This document shows positions 3,875 through 12,404 of a stretch of DNA of 12,404 nucleotides, piece by piece. Below the pieces are notes generated by a model. It made no database searches. It saw only the letters and a list, made by a program, of their open reading frames with translations, and was not told the DNA's origin. Within the stretch, counting starts at the first letter, position 1. Every line of letters begins with the position of its first letter. The translations under genes were made by a program, and so were the position numbers. Source of the stretch: Candidatus Omnitrophota bacterium (GTDB lineage Bacteria > Omnitrophota > Gorgyraeia > Gygaellales > Profunditerraquicolaceae). The stretch is taken from contig JAHFFQ010000026.1 of the NCBI GenBank assembly GCA_023247875.1, positions 1-12,404 of the forward strand, read 5' to 3'.

Positions 3875-4527
3875 TGTTCTACATTGTGGCCACACCGGTA
3901 GGTAATTTAAAAGACATAACTTTACGGGCAATCGAGGTTTTAAAAAACGTGGATTTAATTGCCTGCGAAGATACCCGCCACACTAAGATCCTGCTCCAGC
4001 ATTACGGTATCAAAACTCCCACCACAAGTTTTTATCAGCATAACAGATTCAGCAAAGGCGGGTATATTATCGGCCTGCTGCAGGAAGGTAAAAATGTTGC
4101 GCTTGTGTCTGATGCCGGAACGCCCGGAATACTTGATCCCGGCTATAGCCTGATTAATCTGGCGATAAAGAATAAACTGGAGATGACTTTTATCCCCGGA
4201 GCCGCGGCTTTTATAAATGCGCTGGTACTCTCCGGAAAGCCAGCGCATGAATTTTTCTTTGCCGGGTTTCTTGCGAATCGCTCCCAGGCGCGCAAAAATC
4301 AACTGGAAAAATTAAAACAACTCAATTGCACCCTAGTTTTTTATGAATCCTGCCACAGGATTTTGACCAGCTTGGAAGATATCCAAACTGTCTTTGGCGA
4401 TAAAGAGGTGGTAGTAGCCAGAGAGCTTACCAAAAAGTTTGAAGAGGTCAAGCGTGCTAGCGCAAAAGCCATTCTTGAATCCCTCAAGCATCAAAAACCC
4501 CGCGGCGAATTCGTAGTGATCATCTAA
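3874..4527 (+). CDS. rsmI: 16S rRNA (cytidine(1402)-2'-O)-methyltransferase, short form
   Basis: RsmI uses S-adenosylmethionine to 2'-O-methylate C1402 in the decoding centre of 16S rRNA. The fold is the tetrapyrrole-methylase type. The N-terminus MFYIVATPVGNLKDITLRA, then LIACEDTRHT, the SAM-binding VSDAGTPGILDPG (from about residue 78), the loop IPGAAAFINAL, FYESCHRI and VVARELTKKFEE all match the family in order. The protein has 217 residues and stops right after GEFVVII. Proteobacterial relatives of about 280-290 residues continue with a further C-terminal domain, which is absent here. There is no sign of frameshift, and the downstream bases do not continue the homology, so this looks like a natural short form. 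Its ATG shares an A with the glmS stop, so the two are probably translated together. Confidence 0.93.
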   Translation: MFYIVATPVGNLKDITLRAIEVLKNVDLIACEDTRHTKILLQHYGIKTPTTSFYQHNRFSKGGYIIGLLQEGKNVALVSDAGTPGILDPGYSLINLAIKNKLEMTFIPGAAAFINALVLSGKPAHEFFFAGFLANRSQARKNQLEKLKQLNCTLVFYESCHRILTSLEDIQTVFGDKEVVVARELTKKFEEVKRASAKAILESLKHQKPRGEFVVII

Positions 4528-4544
4528 GAAACCGCTTTCTTTTT
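4526..4544 (+). terminator. Possible weak intrinsic terminator after rsmI
   Basis: AAGAAA (4526-4531) pairs with TTTCTT (4536-4541) around a CCGC loop, and T residues continue to 4544. The stem is A/T rich with a single G-C pair, so it would be weak. Its place directly after the rsmI stop and before a promoter makes it plausible, but it could be chance. Confidence 0.3.
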
Positions 4545-4559
4545 ACCCCCCCAATACCC

Positions 4560-4587
4560 TTGTCAGCGCTTACCTATAATATATACT
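4560..4587 (+). promoter_or_regulatory. Predicted sigma-70-type promoter for the 1454-codon gene
   Basis: TTGTCA (4560-4565) and TATACT (4582-4587) are separated by 16 nt and match the -35 and -10 consensus well. Transcription would start near 4594, about 40 nt before the ATG at 4635. A perfect TATAAT at 4575-4580 lies nearby but is only 9 nt from the -35, so it would have to act without it. There is no obvious Shine-Dalgarno sequence in the short leader. Confidence 0.55.
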
Positions 4588-4634
4588 TTTTATAACACGG
4601 CTGATAGACCGCATCTTAAAATCAAGCTCAAAAC

Positions 4635-7600
4635 ATGGGACGCAAATTCAGGAAAACTATATCCTTATTTTTATCTTTCTGCCTTCTCTTTACTCAGACA
4701 GGCCTCGCCCAGGTTGCCGGGGAGCTGGATCTTTCTAATCATTTTGCCAGGCTAGGCAGCGCCTTCCTCCAGCCGGACACCTTCCGTCCCCTGCATCTAA
4801 GGTATCTCTCATATGACCGCCTAGCCAACAGCTTTAACCTGCTCCTGGATAAAGGAGACTCCCTCAAGGCTGTCCCAAAGGGGACGCTCCCCCAGGGGAC
4901 ACCCTCTCAAGACAAACTTAAACAAGAGACAAGAGAACTCCTCAACTACTTCTTCATCGGCATCTCCCTGCCTAACTCCAGCTTCTGGGTAAACTTAAGG
5001 CCTGATTCACCGGATAACATCATAGACCCCGAGCTTGCCCAGACAGACATCGGCAAGGTCTTCCTGGAGGCAGACCTTAACCTGAAGAAGGATACAGCTC
5101 AAGCTACCTCACCCTCTACTCCTGAAGGCAAGGAATACTGGGATAAGCTATACAAGAAGGCAGGAGAGCTCTATGGCTCTGACAACATCACCATCCCCAC
5201 CCTCACCCGGCCCTGGATAGTCCCGGATGAGATCATTATCAGGGAATCCTCTGACAATGCCTACATCTACAAGGCTACCCTCAAGGTCTGCTTAGAGCAG
5301 GACTACCTCAAAACCACCTCCAATGCCATTACCTCTACCACAGACTACACCTTAAAGGATGAACGCTCCAAAGCCTTAAATGCATACTCTACCCAGCTGA
5401 TCAAGGAACTCATCATCCCCAAGCTCACTAAAGAGGTCAACTCCTCTAAGCGCTATGCCTCCCTACGGCAGGTCTACTACTCCCTAATATTAGCCCAGTG
5501 GTTTAAGACCAAGTTCTACGGTCAATCCGGCACCTACAGCTACCTCATAGATCGACATAACCTCCAGGGATTAACCTCCCAAACCCCCTGGGACAAGGAC
5601 ACCTACTTCCAGGCCTACAAGCAATCCTTTGCTCAAGGCGAGTACAACATCAAAGAGCCCGTATATACCCCTTCCGGACAGACTATCAGGAGCTACATGA
5701 GCGGGGGGATAGCGTTTGGTACGGAAATAGGTGGAGCGATTAGTGCCGGTAGCGTGATTACCCAAAGAAGCTCTGTAGCATCTAGAGACATCCCTTATTT
5801 AAAATATTCGCAAGCCAACGGAGGTACGCTAGACAGTCCTTTTGAGGTTAAAATAGAAGAAGATAATGCGCCTACGGTTGGCCAGATAGCTAAAGCTAGT
5901 TCGTCGATTGGTTTGCCGGAGGAGAAGATAGAATTAAGAATTTATCAAAATAGCGATGAAGCAAAAGCAGTTCTCAGGATTTTTGGTTCCTCTAATGCGG
6001 TGTTCGAAGTGGTAAAAAATCTTTATAATATTAATATAGTATCCAGTGACGTAGTGAAGGTAATTGTTGAAAACCTTCCCGCTAAGGCGAGGCAAAAAGC
6101 AATACTAAAAGTGAGCGTGTTGTTAAGGCAAGAGGTAAACAAAATCAGAGAATTGAGCTTTGTTATTTATGCCCCAAACTATGGGAGAACAAGCCTTGAT
6201 GAAGAAAGGAATTTGCCTTTATTATCAGCCATTAGCGATCAAGTTATTAAATTCGCGGGATTATATAAAACTAATGTTCAGGGATGGTCAGGCGAGAAGA
6301 CAATTACTTTAGTTGCCGCAGAATTTGTTGATGGGGATAATTTATATGATATCTGGCAGAAAGGTAACTTGGATTTACAGGCATCGATTTTATTGCAAAG
6401 AAAGGCAGTTGCGGCTTTCTTCGATATATGGGCAAAAAGTCATGGCAGGATGTTTATTGCTGACGTTAGCTTAGGCCAAGTTGTGCGGCGTTTAAGCGAT
6501 GGAGCAGTGAAAATCGTAGACACCGGTTTTCTGCGCAAGGTAGAAGCGCCGAATAAGTTAAGTCCCGCCAAGATTATGGGGTATTTTGAGGGAGTTTTTG
6601 TACCCCCTATTCCAGGAATGGAGCAAAGCCGTTGGGTATGGTCAGATATGAAGGATAAGACCGAGTTTTTTCAGGGCATTGTTGACGCCTTGGGATTGGT
6701 AGAGGGGATAGATTTTTTAAGAGAGGCCAAGAAAGGTCTTAATAGTTTAATAGCTGAACATAAAGCAATAACCGCAATGAGTGAGGCCATAGATGATTAC
6801 TTAGAAAGCGGGATTAAGAAACATAATCTTTTTGTAGCTGGTGAATTTTGGGGAAATCCGCTTAAGGCAAAAGAAGAAAAGCAGCTTTTAGCCACTCCAG
6901 AACGATTTAATCCCCCACATCTTAAAGCGCTATATGACAATAAAGATAGTGTTTTTAAAGATCGTGATTCTCTTAATGCGGAAATTTCGTTTAATCCGGG
7001 TATCTTTAATGACATCGCTGCTTCTCTGGAACCACTAAAAAATAAATTCAATGAACCGCCGGATGGAAGCGAAATAAAAGGTTCTTCTCCTGTTTCAGAA
7101 ACGCAGACCACCGCCGGCTCGCCGATACTAGATGAAGAAATAACCCGCAGTAATAATGGGAAGATTTTTTCTGATGATTTTAGAAATGTGCTATTTAAGG
7201 AATCTATGGGGGGAAACGCAGGGCGCAATCGCGCGGCAGTAAACGGCTTGGCCGATAAATCCGGAAGGATAATCATATTTGGTAATTTACAAAACTTCCC
7301 TCAAGAAATCCAGAAAAAATATCATGAGAGCGAGTATTACCAGTTTACCATTCTTGTGACTTTTGGCAGGGGATTTGGAAGGGGAATAACAGAATACGCT
7401 TTATTTATTGAAGATCAACCTTTGCTTGGCGAGCCAATGCCTGAAACCGCAAGAGCCGCATTGCAAGAGAGCGTCGATACGGCTAACCAAAAGATAAGCA
7501 GCAGTGTTTCTCCTAAGGACTCAAGCGCCAGCGCCGCCGGCTCGCCGGCTGCGAAGGAGCCCATTTTTAATTCGCCGTCCACGCAGATACCGAACCGGGA

Positions 7601-8999
7601 AGATATTGAGAAGAAGAGTGCAGAGAGGTACGCTAAATGGAAGAGCGAATTGCGCGGGAGAATAGAAAAAGCAAAGACTATTTTAATCTGGGCCCCGCAT
7701 TCTTATGGCGGAATAACATTAGGTGATGTAGCCACCACCATGCCAATACTTATTAAATCTATTCTTGCTTCGGGCGCAAAAATTGAAGAGATAAGAGTAA
7801 GGTGCGATTCTTACCCGGAATTGATAACGGCGATAGGAGATAAGAGAATCACATTAGCTGGGAAGCAGGAGACAATCGAAGGAGCAAATTTGACTTATGC
7901 TCCGGATTTGGTTATGGATTTTACCTCTTCGATTAGCGAGAGAACAGGGTTCGATAATACAATATATTTTCCTTGGGGTGAAATAGGGTTATCTCTTGGG
8001 CGTTATGCGGGCATGCGCTTTGTCTTAGAAAGCGCGGGGTTAAAAGTTCCTGCCCCCGATGAACCAATTCTTGAGAGAGGAAGAAAAGATAGAAAAAACG
8101 GAGCGACTGTTTTTGTTAACCCTCACGGCGACACCATTGATATTAATAACATAGAGGCGTGGAGTAAATTAATTTCTGACCTTATAACCTTTGGTTATAA
8201 GGTCATTCTTAATGAAGGTAAGGAAAACAAAGAGCAAGATATTCGTAGGACCAAGTCAATCCTAAGCGCGGTTGGTGAATTAGGCCAAACCCCTGAAACG
8301 TTTCATGGTGCGATAGATGATTTATTAAAGGCTCTTTCTGTAGTTGATGCAGTGGTAACCGTAGATACCGGAGTTTTTCATGTGGCGCGCCTTTTTGCTC
8401 TTCCCACTGTTGTTTTTACTGGTGATGCTTCAAATGGATGGGTGCCCAATGGAACAGGATGGAGTTCAAGGGATAGAATAGGAGATGATAAGTTACTTAA
8501 GACAATTAAGCTATCCGAATTTAACGATCCTTCCGTTGTCTTGGATTTTATACAAGATAAATCCGGCGTCAGCTCCCCGGTGGCGGTGAAAGATATCGGC
8601 GGTATTGATATGCGGTCGCTGCCTAAGTATACGAAGGTAGAAAAGATAGCGACAGGGCGTTCTTCAGCGAAACAGGGACAGCCCCTTGCAGGGACAGCCC
8701 CTGTTTCTGATAAGGAATGGCTGGAGATAGAGAGGATGGCAAATTCAGGGATAGCCCCTTCCTGTGAACGTATAAGAGAATACCTTTTGTCCTTGAGAGA
8801 CCCAAATAGTCAAATAGATAAGGTGCTCGCCTGTATTGCGGATATTTTAAGGAGAGAGGAGGAGCAGGCCTGCGCCACGGAATCATCCTTAAAAGAGATA
8901 CTGGTTCTGCTTGAATCGGGCAAGCCGGTAAATGAATTAAGGCTGGCATTAATAAAAATACAGGTTTTTGCTAAAGAGCCGCAATTGATAGCTCAATAA
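4635..8999 (+). CDS. Large modular secreted protein with kinase-like and GT9 glycosyltransferase domains
   Basis: This 1454-residue mosaic has no function I can name as a whole. Residues 1-25 form a signal peptide: basic start, hydrophobic core, probable cleavage after GLA before QVAG. A module to about residue 355 (FRPLHLRYLSYDRL, LTRPWIVPDEIII) uses codons unlike the rest. A kinase-like region follows: hinge-like AAEFVDGDNL with Glu563, loop H603-G-R with Asp610 and Gln615 (D-x4-Q where kinases have D-x4-N), and VDTG with Asp629 in place of DFG. No clear ATP-binding lysine is visible. Linkers (SSPVSE, TTAGSP, SASAAGSP, SSPVAV) flank an unidentified domain (about 830-965) and a GT9 domain (about 1014-1300: ITLGDVATTMP with Asp1031, VNPHGD, VDTGVFHVARLFALP with His1249). 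GGIDMRSLP and a helical module (ACIADILRREEE) end the protein. It sits alone between a promoter and a terminator. The GT9 call is firm, the kinase call moderate, and the resemblance to Omnitrophota proteins is from memory. Confidence 0.85.
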   Translation: MGRKFRKTISLFLSFCLLFTQTGLAQVAGELDLSNHFARLGSAFLQPDTFRPLHLRYLSYDRLANSFNLLLDKGDSLKAVPKGTLPQGTPSQDKLKQETRELLNYFFIGISLPNSSFWVNLRPDSPDNIIDPELAQTDIGKVFLEADLNLKKDTAQATSPSTPEGKEYWDKLYKKAGELYGSDNITIPTLTRPWIVPDEIIIRESSDNAYIYKATLKVCLEQDYLKTTSNAITSTTDYTLKDERSKALNAYSTQLIKELIIPKLTKEVNSSKRYASLRQVYYSLILAQWFKTKFYGQSGTYSYLIDRHNLQGLTSQTPWDKDTYFQAYKQSFAQGEYNIKEPVYTPSGQTIRSYMSGGIAFGTEIGGAISAGSVITQRSSVASRDIPYLKYSQANGGTLDSPFEVKIEEDNAPTVGQIAKASSSIGLPEEKIELRIYQNSDEAKAVLRIFGSSNAVFEVVKNLYNINIVSSDVVKVIVENLPAKARQKAILKVSVLLRQEVNKIRELSFVIYAPNYGRTSLDEERNLPLLSAISDQVIKFAGLYKTNVQGWSGEKTITLVAAEFVDGDNLYDIWQKGNLDLQASILLQRKAVAAFFDIWAKSHGRMFIADVSLGQVVRRLSDGAVKIVDTGFLRKVEAPNKLSPAKIMGYFEGVFVPPIPGMEQSRWVWSDMKDKTEFFQGIVDALGLVEGIDFLREAKKGLNSLIAEHKAITAMSEAIDDYLESGIKKHNLFVAGEFWGNPLKAKEEKQLLATPERFNPPHLKALYDNKDSVFKDRDSLNAEISFNPGIFNDIAASLEPLKNKFNEPPDGSEIKGSSPVSETQTTAGSPILDEEITRSNNGKIFSDDFRNVLFKESMGGNAGRNRAAVNGLADKSGRIIIFGNLQNFPQEIQKKYHESEYYQFTILVTFGRGFGRGITEYALFIEDQPLLGEPMPETARAALQESVDTANQKISSSVSPKDSSASAAGSPAAKEPIFNSPSTQIPNREDIEKKSAERYAKWKSELRGRIEKAKTILIWAPHSYGGITLGDVATTMPILIKSILASGAKIEEIRVRCDSYPELITAIGDKRITLAGKQETIEGANLTYAPDLVMDFTSSISERTGFDNTIYFPWGEIGLSLGRYAGMRFVLESAGLKVPAPDEPILERGRKDRKNGATVFVNPHGDTIDINNIEAWSKLISDLITFGYKVILNEGKENKEQDIRRTKSILSAVGELGQTPETFHGAIDDLLKALSVVDAVVTVDTGVFHVARLFALPTVVFTGDASNGWVPNGTGWSSRDRIGDDKLLKTIKLSEFNDPSVVLDFIQDKSGVSSPVAVKDIGGIDMRSLPKYTKVEKIATGRSSAKQGQPLAGTAPVSDKEWLEIERMANSGIAPSCERIREYLLSLRDPNSQIDKVLACIADILRREEEQACATESSLKEILVLLESGKPVNELRLALIKIQVFAKEPQLIAQ
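4871..4901. repeat. GGGGAC-type palindromic repeat inside the N-terminal module
   Basis: TGTCCC (4871-4876) and GGGACA (4896-4901) are perfect inverted arms enclosing a second hairpin, GGGG (4880-4883) ACGCT CCCC (4889-4892). The segment is read in frame as part of a Gly/Pro-containing stretch (VPKGTLPQGTP). Its nested, G/C-run structure is like the short palindromic REP elements that spread in some bacterial genomes. Only sequence form supports this. Confidence 0.5.
7111..7547 (+). repeat. Two identical 14-nt linker repeats (7111-7124 and 7534-7547)
   Basis: The string CCGCCGGCTCGCCG occurs at 7111-7124 and again at 7534-7547, in the same reading phase, encoding the AGSP of the TTAGSP and SAAGSP linkers. 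It is much richer in G and C than the surrounding A/T-rich coding sequence. The copies bracket the unidentified domain and mark domain borders of the 1454-residue protein. The entry spans both copies and the sequence between them. Confidence 0.6.
8669..8707. repeat. Palindromic and tandem repeat near the 3' end of the large gene
   Basis: CAGGGACAGCCCCT occurs twice (8673-8686 and 8689-8702, period 16). The outer arms GAAACAGGG (8669-8677) and CCCTGTTTC (8699-8707) form a perfect 9-bp inverted repeat. It is translated in frame (KQGQPLAGTAPVS) between the GGIDMRSLP segment and the C-terminal helical module. The core resembles the GGGGAC palindrome at 4871-4901, which suggests one repeat family. 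Confidence 0.6.
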
Positions 9000-9070
9000 A
9001 AGGGGCGTTTACCTTCCCAAAAGGTTTATCAGCCAAAAAGAAGGTCCCTATTAAGCGCCCCTTTTTATTT
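8998..9070 (+). terminator. Intrinsic terminator of the large gene, with a long branched loop
   Basis: AAAAGGGGCGTTTA (8998-9011) pairs with TTAAGCGCCCCTTTT (9052-9065, leaving one unpaired or wobbling base near the top), and the T-rich tract TTTTTATTT ends at 9070. The 5' arm begins inside the TAA stop codon (8997-8999). The 40-nt loop holds ACCTT (9011-9015), which can pair with either of two AAGGT copies (9021-9025 or 9041-9045). Termination is likely. The loop structure is unusual. Confidence 0.7.
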
Positions 9071-9105
9071 GTGATCTCCAGGGGAGGAGCGGAAAATAAA
9101 TGCCC

Positions 9106-9134
9106 TTGACAGGGCGCCTTTTGGATGCTATATT
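9106..9134 (+). promoter_or_regulatory. Predicted strong promoter of the pyrimidine operon
   Basis: TTGACA (9106-9111) is a perfect -35 and TATATT (9129-9134) is a good -10, with the optimal 17-nt spacer. Transcription should start near 9141, giving a leader of about 120 nt before pyrR. The -35 lies in a 5-bp inverted repeat, GCCCT (9102-9106) and AGGGC (9111-9115), which could be an operator or chance. Between 9071 and 9101 I see nothing. Confidence 0.75.
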
Positions 9135-9151
9135 TATATCAATAAATTAAC

Positions 9152-9183
9152 CCTTTAAGCTGGCTCTTGAGAAGCTGGCAAGG
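9152..9183 (+). promoter_or_regulatory. Predicted PyrR-binding hairpin (anti-antiterminator) in the pyr leader
   Basis: Bases 9159-9165 pair with 9173-9179 (7 bp, two G-U) around the loop CUUGAGA. A lower stem, CCUU (9152-9155) with AAGG (9180-9183), is separated by a bulge UAA on the 5' side only. Known PyrR-binding loops share this plan of upper stem, 5' purine bulge and lower stem, and a GAGAGGCU-like loop side. Here GAGAAGCU (9169-9176 region) differs slightly from it. Closing this hairpin hides both CUUGAGAAGC (9166-9175), which can instead pair with the attenuator arm 9219-9227, and the AAGGA ribosome site of the leader ORF. The role is inferred from structure and from pyrR lying just downstream. 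Confidence 0.55.
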
Positions 9184-9192
9184 AAATAAAAA

Positions 9193-9237
9193 ATGAATAC
9201 CGTAAACAAAAAATCAAGGCTCTTAGGCAAAACCTAA
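9193..9237 (+). CDS. Possible 14-codon leader peptide overlapping the pyr attenuator
   Basis: An ATG at 9193 follows AAGGA (9180-9184) by 8 nt and opens a frame encoding [14 protein letters not shown], with TAA at 9235-9237 in the descending arm of the attenuator hairpin. A ribosome on this frame would cover the terminator stem and let transcription continue, as in the coupled attenuation known for enterobacterial pyrBI. It is not related in sequence to that leader peptide as far as I can tell. The frame could be fortuitous, but its ribosome site and its exact overlap with the hairpin argue for use. Confidence 0.4.
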
Positions 9238-9248
9238 GGGCCTTTTTT
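9216..9248 (+). terminator. Attenuator (intrinsic terminator) upstream of pyrR
   Basis: AAGGCTCTTAGG (9216-9227) pairs with CCTAAGGGCCTT (9233-9244) in 12 continuous base pairs, one of them G-U, with the loop CAAAA. Six T residues run from 9243 to 9248. It ends 11 nt before the pyrR ATG and about 100 nt after the predicted transcription start, so it is an attenuator rather than an end-of-gene terminator. The competing pairing of 9219-9227 with 9166-9175 (9 bp, one bulged A) would be the antiterminator. Confidence 0.85.
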
Positions 9249-9259
9249 GTGGGGTTAAA

Positions 9260-9799
9260 ATGAGAGAAAAAGCCAAGATATTGGATAAAGAGGCGATCAG
9301 CAGGGCGGTAATGCGCATTGCCCACGAAATCATCGAGAAAAATAGCGGCACGGATGCGCTCTGTCTGGTAGGCATAAGGAACCGCGGAGTATACATTGCC
9401 CGGCGCATTGCCGGATGCATAAAAAAGATTGAAGACAGGGACATCCCCGTGGGCGCCCTGGATATTACGCTTTACCGAGATGATCTGGCGCTGGCTTCAG
9501 GACAGCCGACAGTGCGCAAGACCGAGATAGATTTTGATATTAACGATAAGAAGCTGGTTTTAGTTGACGATGTGCTTTACACCGGAAGGACCATCCGTGC
9601 AGCCCTGGATGCCTTAATAGATTTTGGTCGGCCAAACTCCATCCAGCTGGCGGTTCTGGTGGATCGCGGCCATCGCGAGCTGCCGATCCGGGCGGATTTT
9701 GTAGGAAAAAATATCCCTACCTCTAAAAAAGAGGCCGTAGAAGTACGTTTAGAGGAAAGCGATAATACTGAAGAAGTAGCGATTATGGAGAAGGATTAG
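9260..9799 (+). CDS. pyrR: PyrR: pyr operon attenuation regulator / uracil phosphoribosyltransferase
   Basis: PyrR binds a hairpin in pyr mRNA leaders when uridine nucleotides are plentiful and so favours transcription termination. Many members also convert uracil and PRPP to UMP. The 179 residues match the usual length. The type I phosphoribosyltransferase signature [13 protein letters not shown] (about 99-111, with the Asp103-Asp104 pair) binds PRPP, and [24 protein letters not shown] and [19 protein letters not shown] are characteristic of PyrR. The ATG follows GGGG at 9251-9254, a modest ribosome site. The gene lies directly behind a leader with a matching hairpin and attenuator, consistent with autoregulation. 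Its TAG is followed immediately by the ATG of pyrB. Confidence 0.96.
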
Positions 9800-12006: not shown

Positions 12007-12404
12007 ATGGAATTTATTGCCGATTTTCATATCCACTCAAAATACTCCCGGGCAACCAGCCGGGATATGGATATTAAACACCTGGCAGAATGGGCACAAT
12101 TAAAAGGCATTACTTTAATGGGCACCGGAGATTTTACACACCATCTCTGGCTGGAGGAATTAAAGCATAATTTAGAGGATTGCGGAAACGGCCTCTTTAA
12201 GCACGCCGGAATTTATTTTATGCTCACCGCAGAGGTAAGCAGTATTTATTCCAAAGGCGGGCGCACCTACCGTATCCATAATTTGATTTTTAGCCCTTCA
12301 TTTAAAAGCGTAGACAAGATAAATGAGCGGTTAAGCAGGATCGGTAACCTGGCCAGCGACGGCCGTCCGATATTGGGTTTAGACGCGGCGGAGTTGGCGC
12401 GCAT
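12007..12404 (+). CDS. Endonuclease Q-like PHP-domain protein, 3'-truncated by the window edge
   Basis: The first 132 codons are visible. The opening MEFIADFHIHSKYSRATS is a PHP phosphoesterase motif with His8 and His10 as metal ligands. MGTGDFTHHLWLEEL, TAEVSSIYSKGGR, RIHNLIFSPS and SDGRPILGLDA follow in the order I know from the endonuclease Q family. Characterised members, mainly archaeal with a few bacterial, cut DNA 5' to deaminated bases such as uracil and hypoxanthine. The ATG is 3 nt after the pyrC stop, with AAAGG at 11996-12000 inside the end of pyrC, so it is probably part of the pyr transcript. The C-terminal part needed to confirm EndoQ activity lies outside the window. Confidence 0.85.
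   Translation, partial: MEFIADFHIHSKYSRATSRDMDIKHLAEWAQLKGITLMGTGDFTHHLWLEELKHNLEDCGNGLFKHAGIYFMLTAEVSSIYSKGGRTYRIHNLIFSPSFKSVDKINERLSRIGNLASDGRPILGLDAAELAR

Follow-up and report, generated by a model that had tools for sequence, protein, structure and literature searches.

The rsmI–pyrR locus and its gene

The window analysed here, a stretch of 12,404 nucleotides from a Candidatus Omnitrophota bacterium, is the whole of one contig in a MAG of 177 contigs. The order around the gene under study is gyrA, tRNA-Glu, glmS, rsmI, the gene itself, pyrR, pyrB and pyrC (NCBIfam names). The gene is a single open frame of 4.4 kb, confirming the unbroken frame of the original prediction, and is the one family copy detected in its own genome. 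Its parts are as follows.

4635..8999, + strand: whole gene, 1454 aa, flanked by rsmI and pyrR
4635..4712, + strand: signal-peptide pattern, residues 1–26 (pattern test)
4713..5729, + strand: conserved N-domain, residues 27–365, matched in 120 of the 120 homologues listed (of 594)
5748..7082, + strand: module 1, residues 372–816, the kinase-like region of the original prediction, without family or PDB match
7083..7127, + strand: linker, residues 817–831, with two SSPV/GSPI motifs (sequence motif)
7128..7538, + strand: module 2, residues 832–968, about 137 aa, recurring in the family member P0002
7539..7550, + strand: linker GSPA (GGC TCG CCG GCT; sequence motif)
7602..8570, + strand: module 3, residues 990–1312, divergent GT9-like domain (Pfam, profile and hhalign matches)
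8571..8582, + strand: linker SSPV (sequence motif)
8598..8624, + strand: C-tail signature GGIDMRSLP, residues 1322–1330; GGI[DN] is common to 112 of the 120 homologues listed
8625..8996, + strand: C-tail, residues 1331–1454, with Cys 1377, 1400 and 1413; matched in 119 of the 120 homologues listed

The protein begins MGRKFRK-TISLFLSFCLLF-TQTGLAQ, an n-h-c signal-peptide pattern as judged by our own pattern test and not by a dedicated predictor. This agrees with the signal peptide proposed from the sequence alone, and its c-region pattern is kept in 137 of 176 family members. Position −1 is Ala in 121 of these 137 and position −3 is Gly or Ala in all of them, while 115 of the 116 c-region-matching members that start with Met carry a Lys or Arg within the first nine residues. 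Besides the signal-peptide pattern, mean hydropathy (19 residues) exceeds 1.5 in the window protein only at the GT9 core. An AlphaFold2 model of residues 1–365 (mean pLDDT 81.2, pTM 0.76) is without a clear structural relative, and the N-domain has no PDB match at E ≤ 0.001.

Several features of the surrounding DNA were recorded. GC skew is negative (−0.16 to −0.25) across 4201–5400, over the last part of rsmI and the stretch coding for the N-domain, and positive again from 6001. Upstream of pyrR lie a promoter-like site (9106–9134, an 11/12 match with TG) and a terminator-like hairpin of 12 pairs (9216–9244), a candidate pyr attenuator; within 9101–9259 no family reached its Rfam gathering score, and site counts were not clearly above those of shuffles. 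The truncated last gene (12007–12404) starts FIADFHIHSKYSRATS and has no NCBIfam match at 1e-10; we take this start to resemble a PHP-type domain. A PADLOC search gave nothing at E ≤ 0.01.

Fixed ends and variable middles

Phmmer found 594 homologues, and among the 120 listed the match takes in the N-terminal ~360 residues of all 120 and the last ~130 residues of 119. The tail match ends fewer than 10 residues from the protein end in 105 of them, 10–19 residues in 13 and 30–39 in one, and GGI[DN] lies inside the last 260 residues of 112. Between these ends the proteins diverge. In a single MAG a subset of the copies was compared, namely ten members from eight loci, each exceeding 700 aa: their N-domains are 55–88% identical, and related middles were found in 1 of 45 pairs (E ≤ 1e-5). 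In a set of 176 members, obtained from 194 sequences by dropping 18 for shared middle words, 222 pairs have a common middle stretch of at least 60 aa; in 187 of these pairs what is shared amounts to under half of both middles, and in 4 it exceeds 80% of both. Module 2 of the window protein is one such reused piece, as window residues 810–977 are 55% identical to residues 658–829 of P0002 (E 2e-49), where the arrangement differs. Surveying domain architectures in related genomes, as suggested along with the original prediction, has placed the window protein in a family with fixed ends and swapped middles, of which its own is one.

The rsmI–pyrR slot itself was surveyed in 30 genomes searched for both flanks, with G018 fetched in addition. 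A family gene lies between rsmI and pyrR in G000 (the window), G005, G011, G023 and G030, and G018 is the sixth case. The slot members range from ~1.45 to 6.8 thousand residues and their middles differ. Those of G000 and G005 are 66% and 77% alike at their ends and have no common middle; those of G011 and G018, with middles of ~4300 and ~6300 aa, are 70% and 70% alike at the ends and 78% in a GT9 module, with nothing more at E ≤ 1e-4; those of G023 and G030 are 64–69% alike save for one replaced stretch. The G018 member is a frame of 6849 codons, more than 20 kb. In ten genomes (G001, G004, G009, G010, G012, G013, G015, G025, G031, G032) the rsmI–pyrR gap is ~160–390 nt by match coordinates, and the eight of these that were fetched hold no family frame in the slot; in six (G002, G006, G014, G017, G029, G034) the gap is 0.7–2.9 kb without a family frame, and in nine others one or both flanks are absent or the flanks lie apart. 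The nearest relatives of the two flanks conflict: rsmI is 91% identical to that of G000 in G011, 90% in G018 and 74% in G005, while pyrR is 89% identical in G005, 85% in G011 and 82% in G018. This pattern, seen in few genomes, would fit recombination in the slot. At the sequence level, shared ends, unrelated middles, reuse of a module and differing middles in one slot are evident. An assembly artefact joining unrelated genes, a concern for an entire contig of a MAG in 177 pieces, is barely credible given the single open frame and the fact that five other genomes have members with these ends between rsmI and pyrR.

Among 39 whole genomes searched with the window protein, 27 gave matches, its own included. 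The N-domain is present in 136 of 384 Omnitrophota genomes (own included), all 136 of them in the same class or nearer. Copy numbers are rough, since few candidates were scored per genome, and reach up to 17 matching stretches per genome in the 39-genome search and up to 65 first-look candidates in the 384-genome search. Congeners such as G002, G003, G006, G016, G017 and G022, some of whose genomes are incomplete, gave no N-domain match, and the family is therefore not essential. The GTDB collection yielded 210 stretches coding for relatives; among the 77 loci kept, 71 are named Omnitrophota or Omnitrophica, five belong to unnamed bacteria and one to Thermodesulfovibrionia. This last (L083), from a short contig in a MAG so labelled, would reflect misbinning or transfer, perhaps a binning error. 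Two contigs of a viral collection carry family members (L135, L136), by host contamination or virus carriage. Viral contigs gave six weak GT9-like loci, two N-domain loci and no locus for the kinase-like part.

Many middles are punctuated by short [SG]SP linkers, found in 112 of 176 and absent from 64, including the slot members of G023 and G030. Module breakpoints lie within 10 aa of such a linker in 46 of 560 cases, against 12 for random and 19 for composition-matched positions. We treat this excess as supporting evidence only, because the ends of local alignments tend to lie in fast-evolving stretches in any case. Linker disorder as the sole cause of breakpoints falling in linkers was considered and set aside; under the composition-matched control the excess shrinks, the number expected for the 46 observed rising from 12 to 19. 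The linkers are also distinctive in codon use. Their Ser codon is TCG in 45% of cases (n=154), against 15% in the other Ser-Pro pairs of the family (n=426) and 17% in Ser-Pro pairs of neighbour genes (n=401); chance occurrences of [ASG]SP[VILA] in neighbour genes, a weaker control, give 23% (n=31). In the window protein, TCG-CCG occurs in 2 of 4 linkers. The bias suggests homology between linkers at the DNA level, as would be expected of exchange seams.

The modules of the window protein and the putative payloads of its relatives

Module 1 had been read as a kinase-like region, and this half of the original interpretation is not supported. Residues 401–802 gave no Pfam match at E ≤ 10 and residues 375–816 none at E ≤ 1; a three-sequence profile of the module found nothing in the PDB at E ≤ 5; hhalign against a segment where Pfam detects a protein kinase returned a probability of 0.2%; and no relative was found in a large protein set (8000 candidates scored). 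For want of Pfam, PDB-profile and hhalign support, the kinase reading was set aside. The module has two weak relatives in other megaproteins (E ~7e-4). In the alignment of the three, inspected by eye, candidates for the Asp of a catalytic loop and for a DFG-like Asp are both present, and the putative Asn column of the loop holds Gln in the window protein. This two-Asp pattern, common to module 1 and the two other megaproteins, is a lead only.

Module 3 had been assigned to the GT9 glycosyltransferases with its motifs intact, and here the outcome is divided. PF01075 matches the window protein with 27.3 bits (cut-off 22; E 2.7e-6), and both motifs quoted, ITLGDVATT and VDTGVFHVAR, are present; the alignment spans only profile positions 123–206 of 247, leaving most of the N-terminal half unmatched, and the usual Lys is absent. 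Relatives of the module align across ~330 aa. When five megaprotein GT9 modules were combined into a profile, the PDB yielded two matches at E ≤ 1, the better being heptosyltransferase II (1psw; E 0.0043). Five further GT9 matches above cut-off occur in the same genome, and hhalign of the window module against an ordinary GT9 of that genome gives E 5e-4 with a probability of 31%. The likeness to the GT9 heptosyltransferases (PF01075) lies in the C-terminal, nucleotide-binding half, in DTGVFHVA (the DTGxxH motif) and in a GD...P motif early in the module, kept as judged by eye. Unlike these enzymes, the module sits in a chain with a signal peptide, contains a segment of its own (NPHGDTID) and carries Asp where all three ordinary GT9s aligned from the same genome carry Lys. 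The GT9 modules of G011 and G018 keep this Lys and have Glu in place of the first Asp. The Lys and Asp columns presumably have roles in GT9 enzymes. Because of these replacements the catalytic activity of the window module is uncertain, and with the Lys missing, module 3 is called GT9-like and not an active GT9. Domains with new substrates, a further option of the original prediction, are conceivable here. A hairpin-forming inverted repeat of 13 pairs (8177–8205) lies within its coding stretch.

Synonymous differences between the modules are near saturation, and pN/pS only was used; module ages from synonymous differences were dropped for the same reason. Between G011 and G018 the GT9 module has a pN/pS of 0.26, which shows constraint on the module in this pair. 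Because the window module gives 0.63 and 0.60 against G011 and G018, constraint on its own copy appears less clear. Other genomes of the class encode related GT9-like modules within frames of 1991, 2499 and 29111 codons (L036, L037, L038), and among 4833 candidates no stand-alone relative of the GT9 module was found at E ≤ 0.001.

No precomputed Pfam domain is present in 81 of the 120 homologues listed. The precomputed domains of the others, together with a Pfam scan of 28 members, a non-random choice from the 39 of 120 already having a precomputed domain (P0012 and P0047 were left out), include Metallophos, PPDK_N, HATPase_c, GNAT, several methyltransferases, Pkinase, Hpr_kinase_C, NUDIX, DnaJ, radical SAM and M23. 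Among protease-like motifs, HExxH occurs in 48 of 176 middles (2.9 in shuffles) and 10 of the 176 have a caspase-like pair (0.1 in shuffles); by the same kind of pattern test the pair is absent from the window protein. In P0007 and L110, radical-SAM-like CxxxCxxC motifs persist within Cys-poor middles.

Such modules could also belong to megaproteins that the bacterium keeps on its own surface or in its periplasm, in which enzyme folds would have turned into catalytically dead binding or structural units of an adhesin or coat, varying against phages or predators or to match partners. This is the strongest rival to the reading that we prefer, a real possibility although we lean against it. It would explain export without having to supply substrates to enzymes of intracellular type outside the cell, and it agrees with the missing Lys of the window GT9. 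An adhesin or coat role has been put forward for the giant ORFs of Omnitrophota, as described in PMC10066038. The rival accounts less well for protease-like motifs in excess of shuffles (HExxH and the caspase-like pair), for the persistence of the CxxxCxxC motifs amid Cys-poor middles and for the pN/pS of 0.26 in one GT9 pair.

Proposed export and delivery, and comparison with known systems

The amino acid composition of the family bears on its location. Family middles contain 0.245% Cys (95% interval 0.217–0.275), against 1.40% (1.31–1.51) in presumed cytoplasmic neighbour genes (n=391) and 0.92% (0.69–1.16) in presumed exported ones (n=54), or 0.78% without the lipoprotein- and cytochrome-like ones, the neighbours having been sorted by our own crude rules. 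Relative to the cytoplasmic set, middles have a Cys ratio of 0.17, and none of the 20 residues is more extreme. N-domains hold 0.071% Cys and tails (n=149) 2.05%, and 118 of 147 tails have a Cys in the 1400 column; the middle of the window protein has one Cys in 914 residues. The depletion, evident in the N-domain and middle and not in the tail, supports adaptation to oxidising surroundings outside the cytoplasm, and because presumed exported neighbours hold 0.92% Cys it would go beyond what export alone explains. A literature search on the cysteine content of exported proteins found nothing.

In a simple scan, 157 of 176 middles are without a membrane-like segment and 19 have one. Tat-like signal sequences occur inside the middles of P0016, P0021, P0043 and L087, perhaps as traces of fused genes. 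Two secretins are encoded in the window's own genome, which shows that outer-membrane channels exist there. A search of that genome for an ATP/ADP translocase gave no match, as did the control genomes, so that this negative carries no information.

The original prediction had offered an N-terminus that is not cleaved and orients the protein inward as one of its options. More broadly, the N-terminus could be an uncleaved anchor, or unused, with the modules being ordinary intracellular enzymes fused together in the cytoplasm or facing it. HATPase_c, GNAT, NUDIX and Hpr_kinase_C domains need intracellular substrates, and their presence in the family speaks for this arrangement, which we nonetheless consider quite improbable: a signal-peptide pattern is conserved across the family, and the Cys depletion, seen also in the window middle, speaks against it. 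An inward orientation is further disfavoured by the positive charges before the hydrophobic stretch, by the Cys content of middles relative to cytoplasmic neighbours and by the scarcity of membrane-like segments. The alternative raised alongside it, an effector delivered into another cell, would fit the swapped modules. The earlier interpretation is thus partly supported, its kinase half finding no support.

The data presented above have led us to propose a model, to which we give a probability of roughly one in two, whereby the window protein represents one allele of a carrier that has two fixed ends, is exported by Sec and holds swapped payload modules. The fixed frame would consist of the signal peptide and N-domain together with the C-terminal GGIDxRxLP tail, and these ends would carry export and anchoring or release. 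The middle would be a payload of interchangeable, linker-separated modules, which in the window protein comprise an unassigned domain, the reused ~137-aa module and the GT9-like domain. It may act beyond the cell, the likeliest place being on or in a nearby cell, prey or host, that supplies nucleotide-type substrates, and conflict with this partner cell may drive the swapping of modules. The pattern of ends and middles suggests, and does not prove, that interchangeable payloads are sent out of the cell. We infer their delivery into another cell as effectors, which would fit both the swapped modules and the intracellular type of the enzymes; entry into a partner cell would solve the substrate problem raised in the original prediction. 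Several observations weigh against the model: a Cys depletion beyond that of presumed exported neighbours, the Cys-bearing tail, the 19 middles with membrane-like segments, the pN/pS of the window's own GT9 copy and its lost Lys, the 81 homologues without a precomputed Pfam domain, the 64 middles free of a linker, the lack of an immunity-type gene beside the window gene and the congeners without an N-domain match. Such delivery would also fit the predatory or parasitic life proposed for Omnitrophota, in which, by the account in PMC10066038, the mode of partner interaction is not known.

Two known systems resemble this carrier in logic. MARTX toxins, as described in PMC6315884, are likewise large exported proteins with conserved N- and C-terminal parts and exchangeable central effector domains. 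The comparison, made by description and not by sequence, shows differences: here the ends are short (~365 and ~130 residues) and the N-terminus has a Sec-type signal-peptide pattern, MARTX being secreted by an atypical type I route; in place of repeat-containing arms there is no tandem repeat array at score 50 in 4500–9300 (DNA level); and the caspase-like pattern is absent from the window protein, where MARTX has an inbuilt cysteine protease domain. Polymorphic toxin systems, as described in PMC3482391, also combine a conserved trafficking part with recombined, diverse enzyme domains, count Sec-dependent export among their routes and in some cases contain caspase-like peptidases. Their variable part is C-terminal, whereas here it is central and the C-terminus is a second conserved end, and at the window locus no plus-strand frame of at least 25 aa lies between the gene and pyrR that could be an immunity-type gene. 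Because defining features of both fail, the family is a member of neither. The giant ORFs of Omnitrophota described in PMC10066038 come from the same phylum and, as here, are large proteins with few annotated domains; at 4.4 kb the window gene is below the size of more than 20 kb that defines them, and the likeness is one of description, not of compared sequences. No description of the family was found in the open-access literature searched; subscription papers and bioRxiv, with the preprint on giant genes that PMC12057145 cites, lay outside this scope and may hold an earlier one.

A wider form of the model, which is unlikely as a whole, would see a combinatorial export system of Omnitrophota. 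Its two-ended carrier would use SSPV-type linkers, favouring TCG-CCG, as DNA-level seams for the exchange of payloads among paralogues and species; the alleles of one slot would run from empty to more than 20 kb, at least some giant ORFs could be the long end of the family, and the payloads would act in partner cells. Each nanobacterium would then have a swappable enzyme arsenal.

If the proposed carrier is real, hundreds of members would be concrete candidates for what Omnitrophota cells send out. Searching with the two ends would find more of them and may reveal a possible origin of some giant ORFs, and the combination of a Cys-poor payload with a Cys-bearing tail could point to the machinery of export or anchoring.
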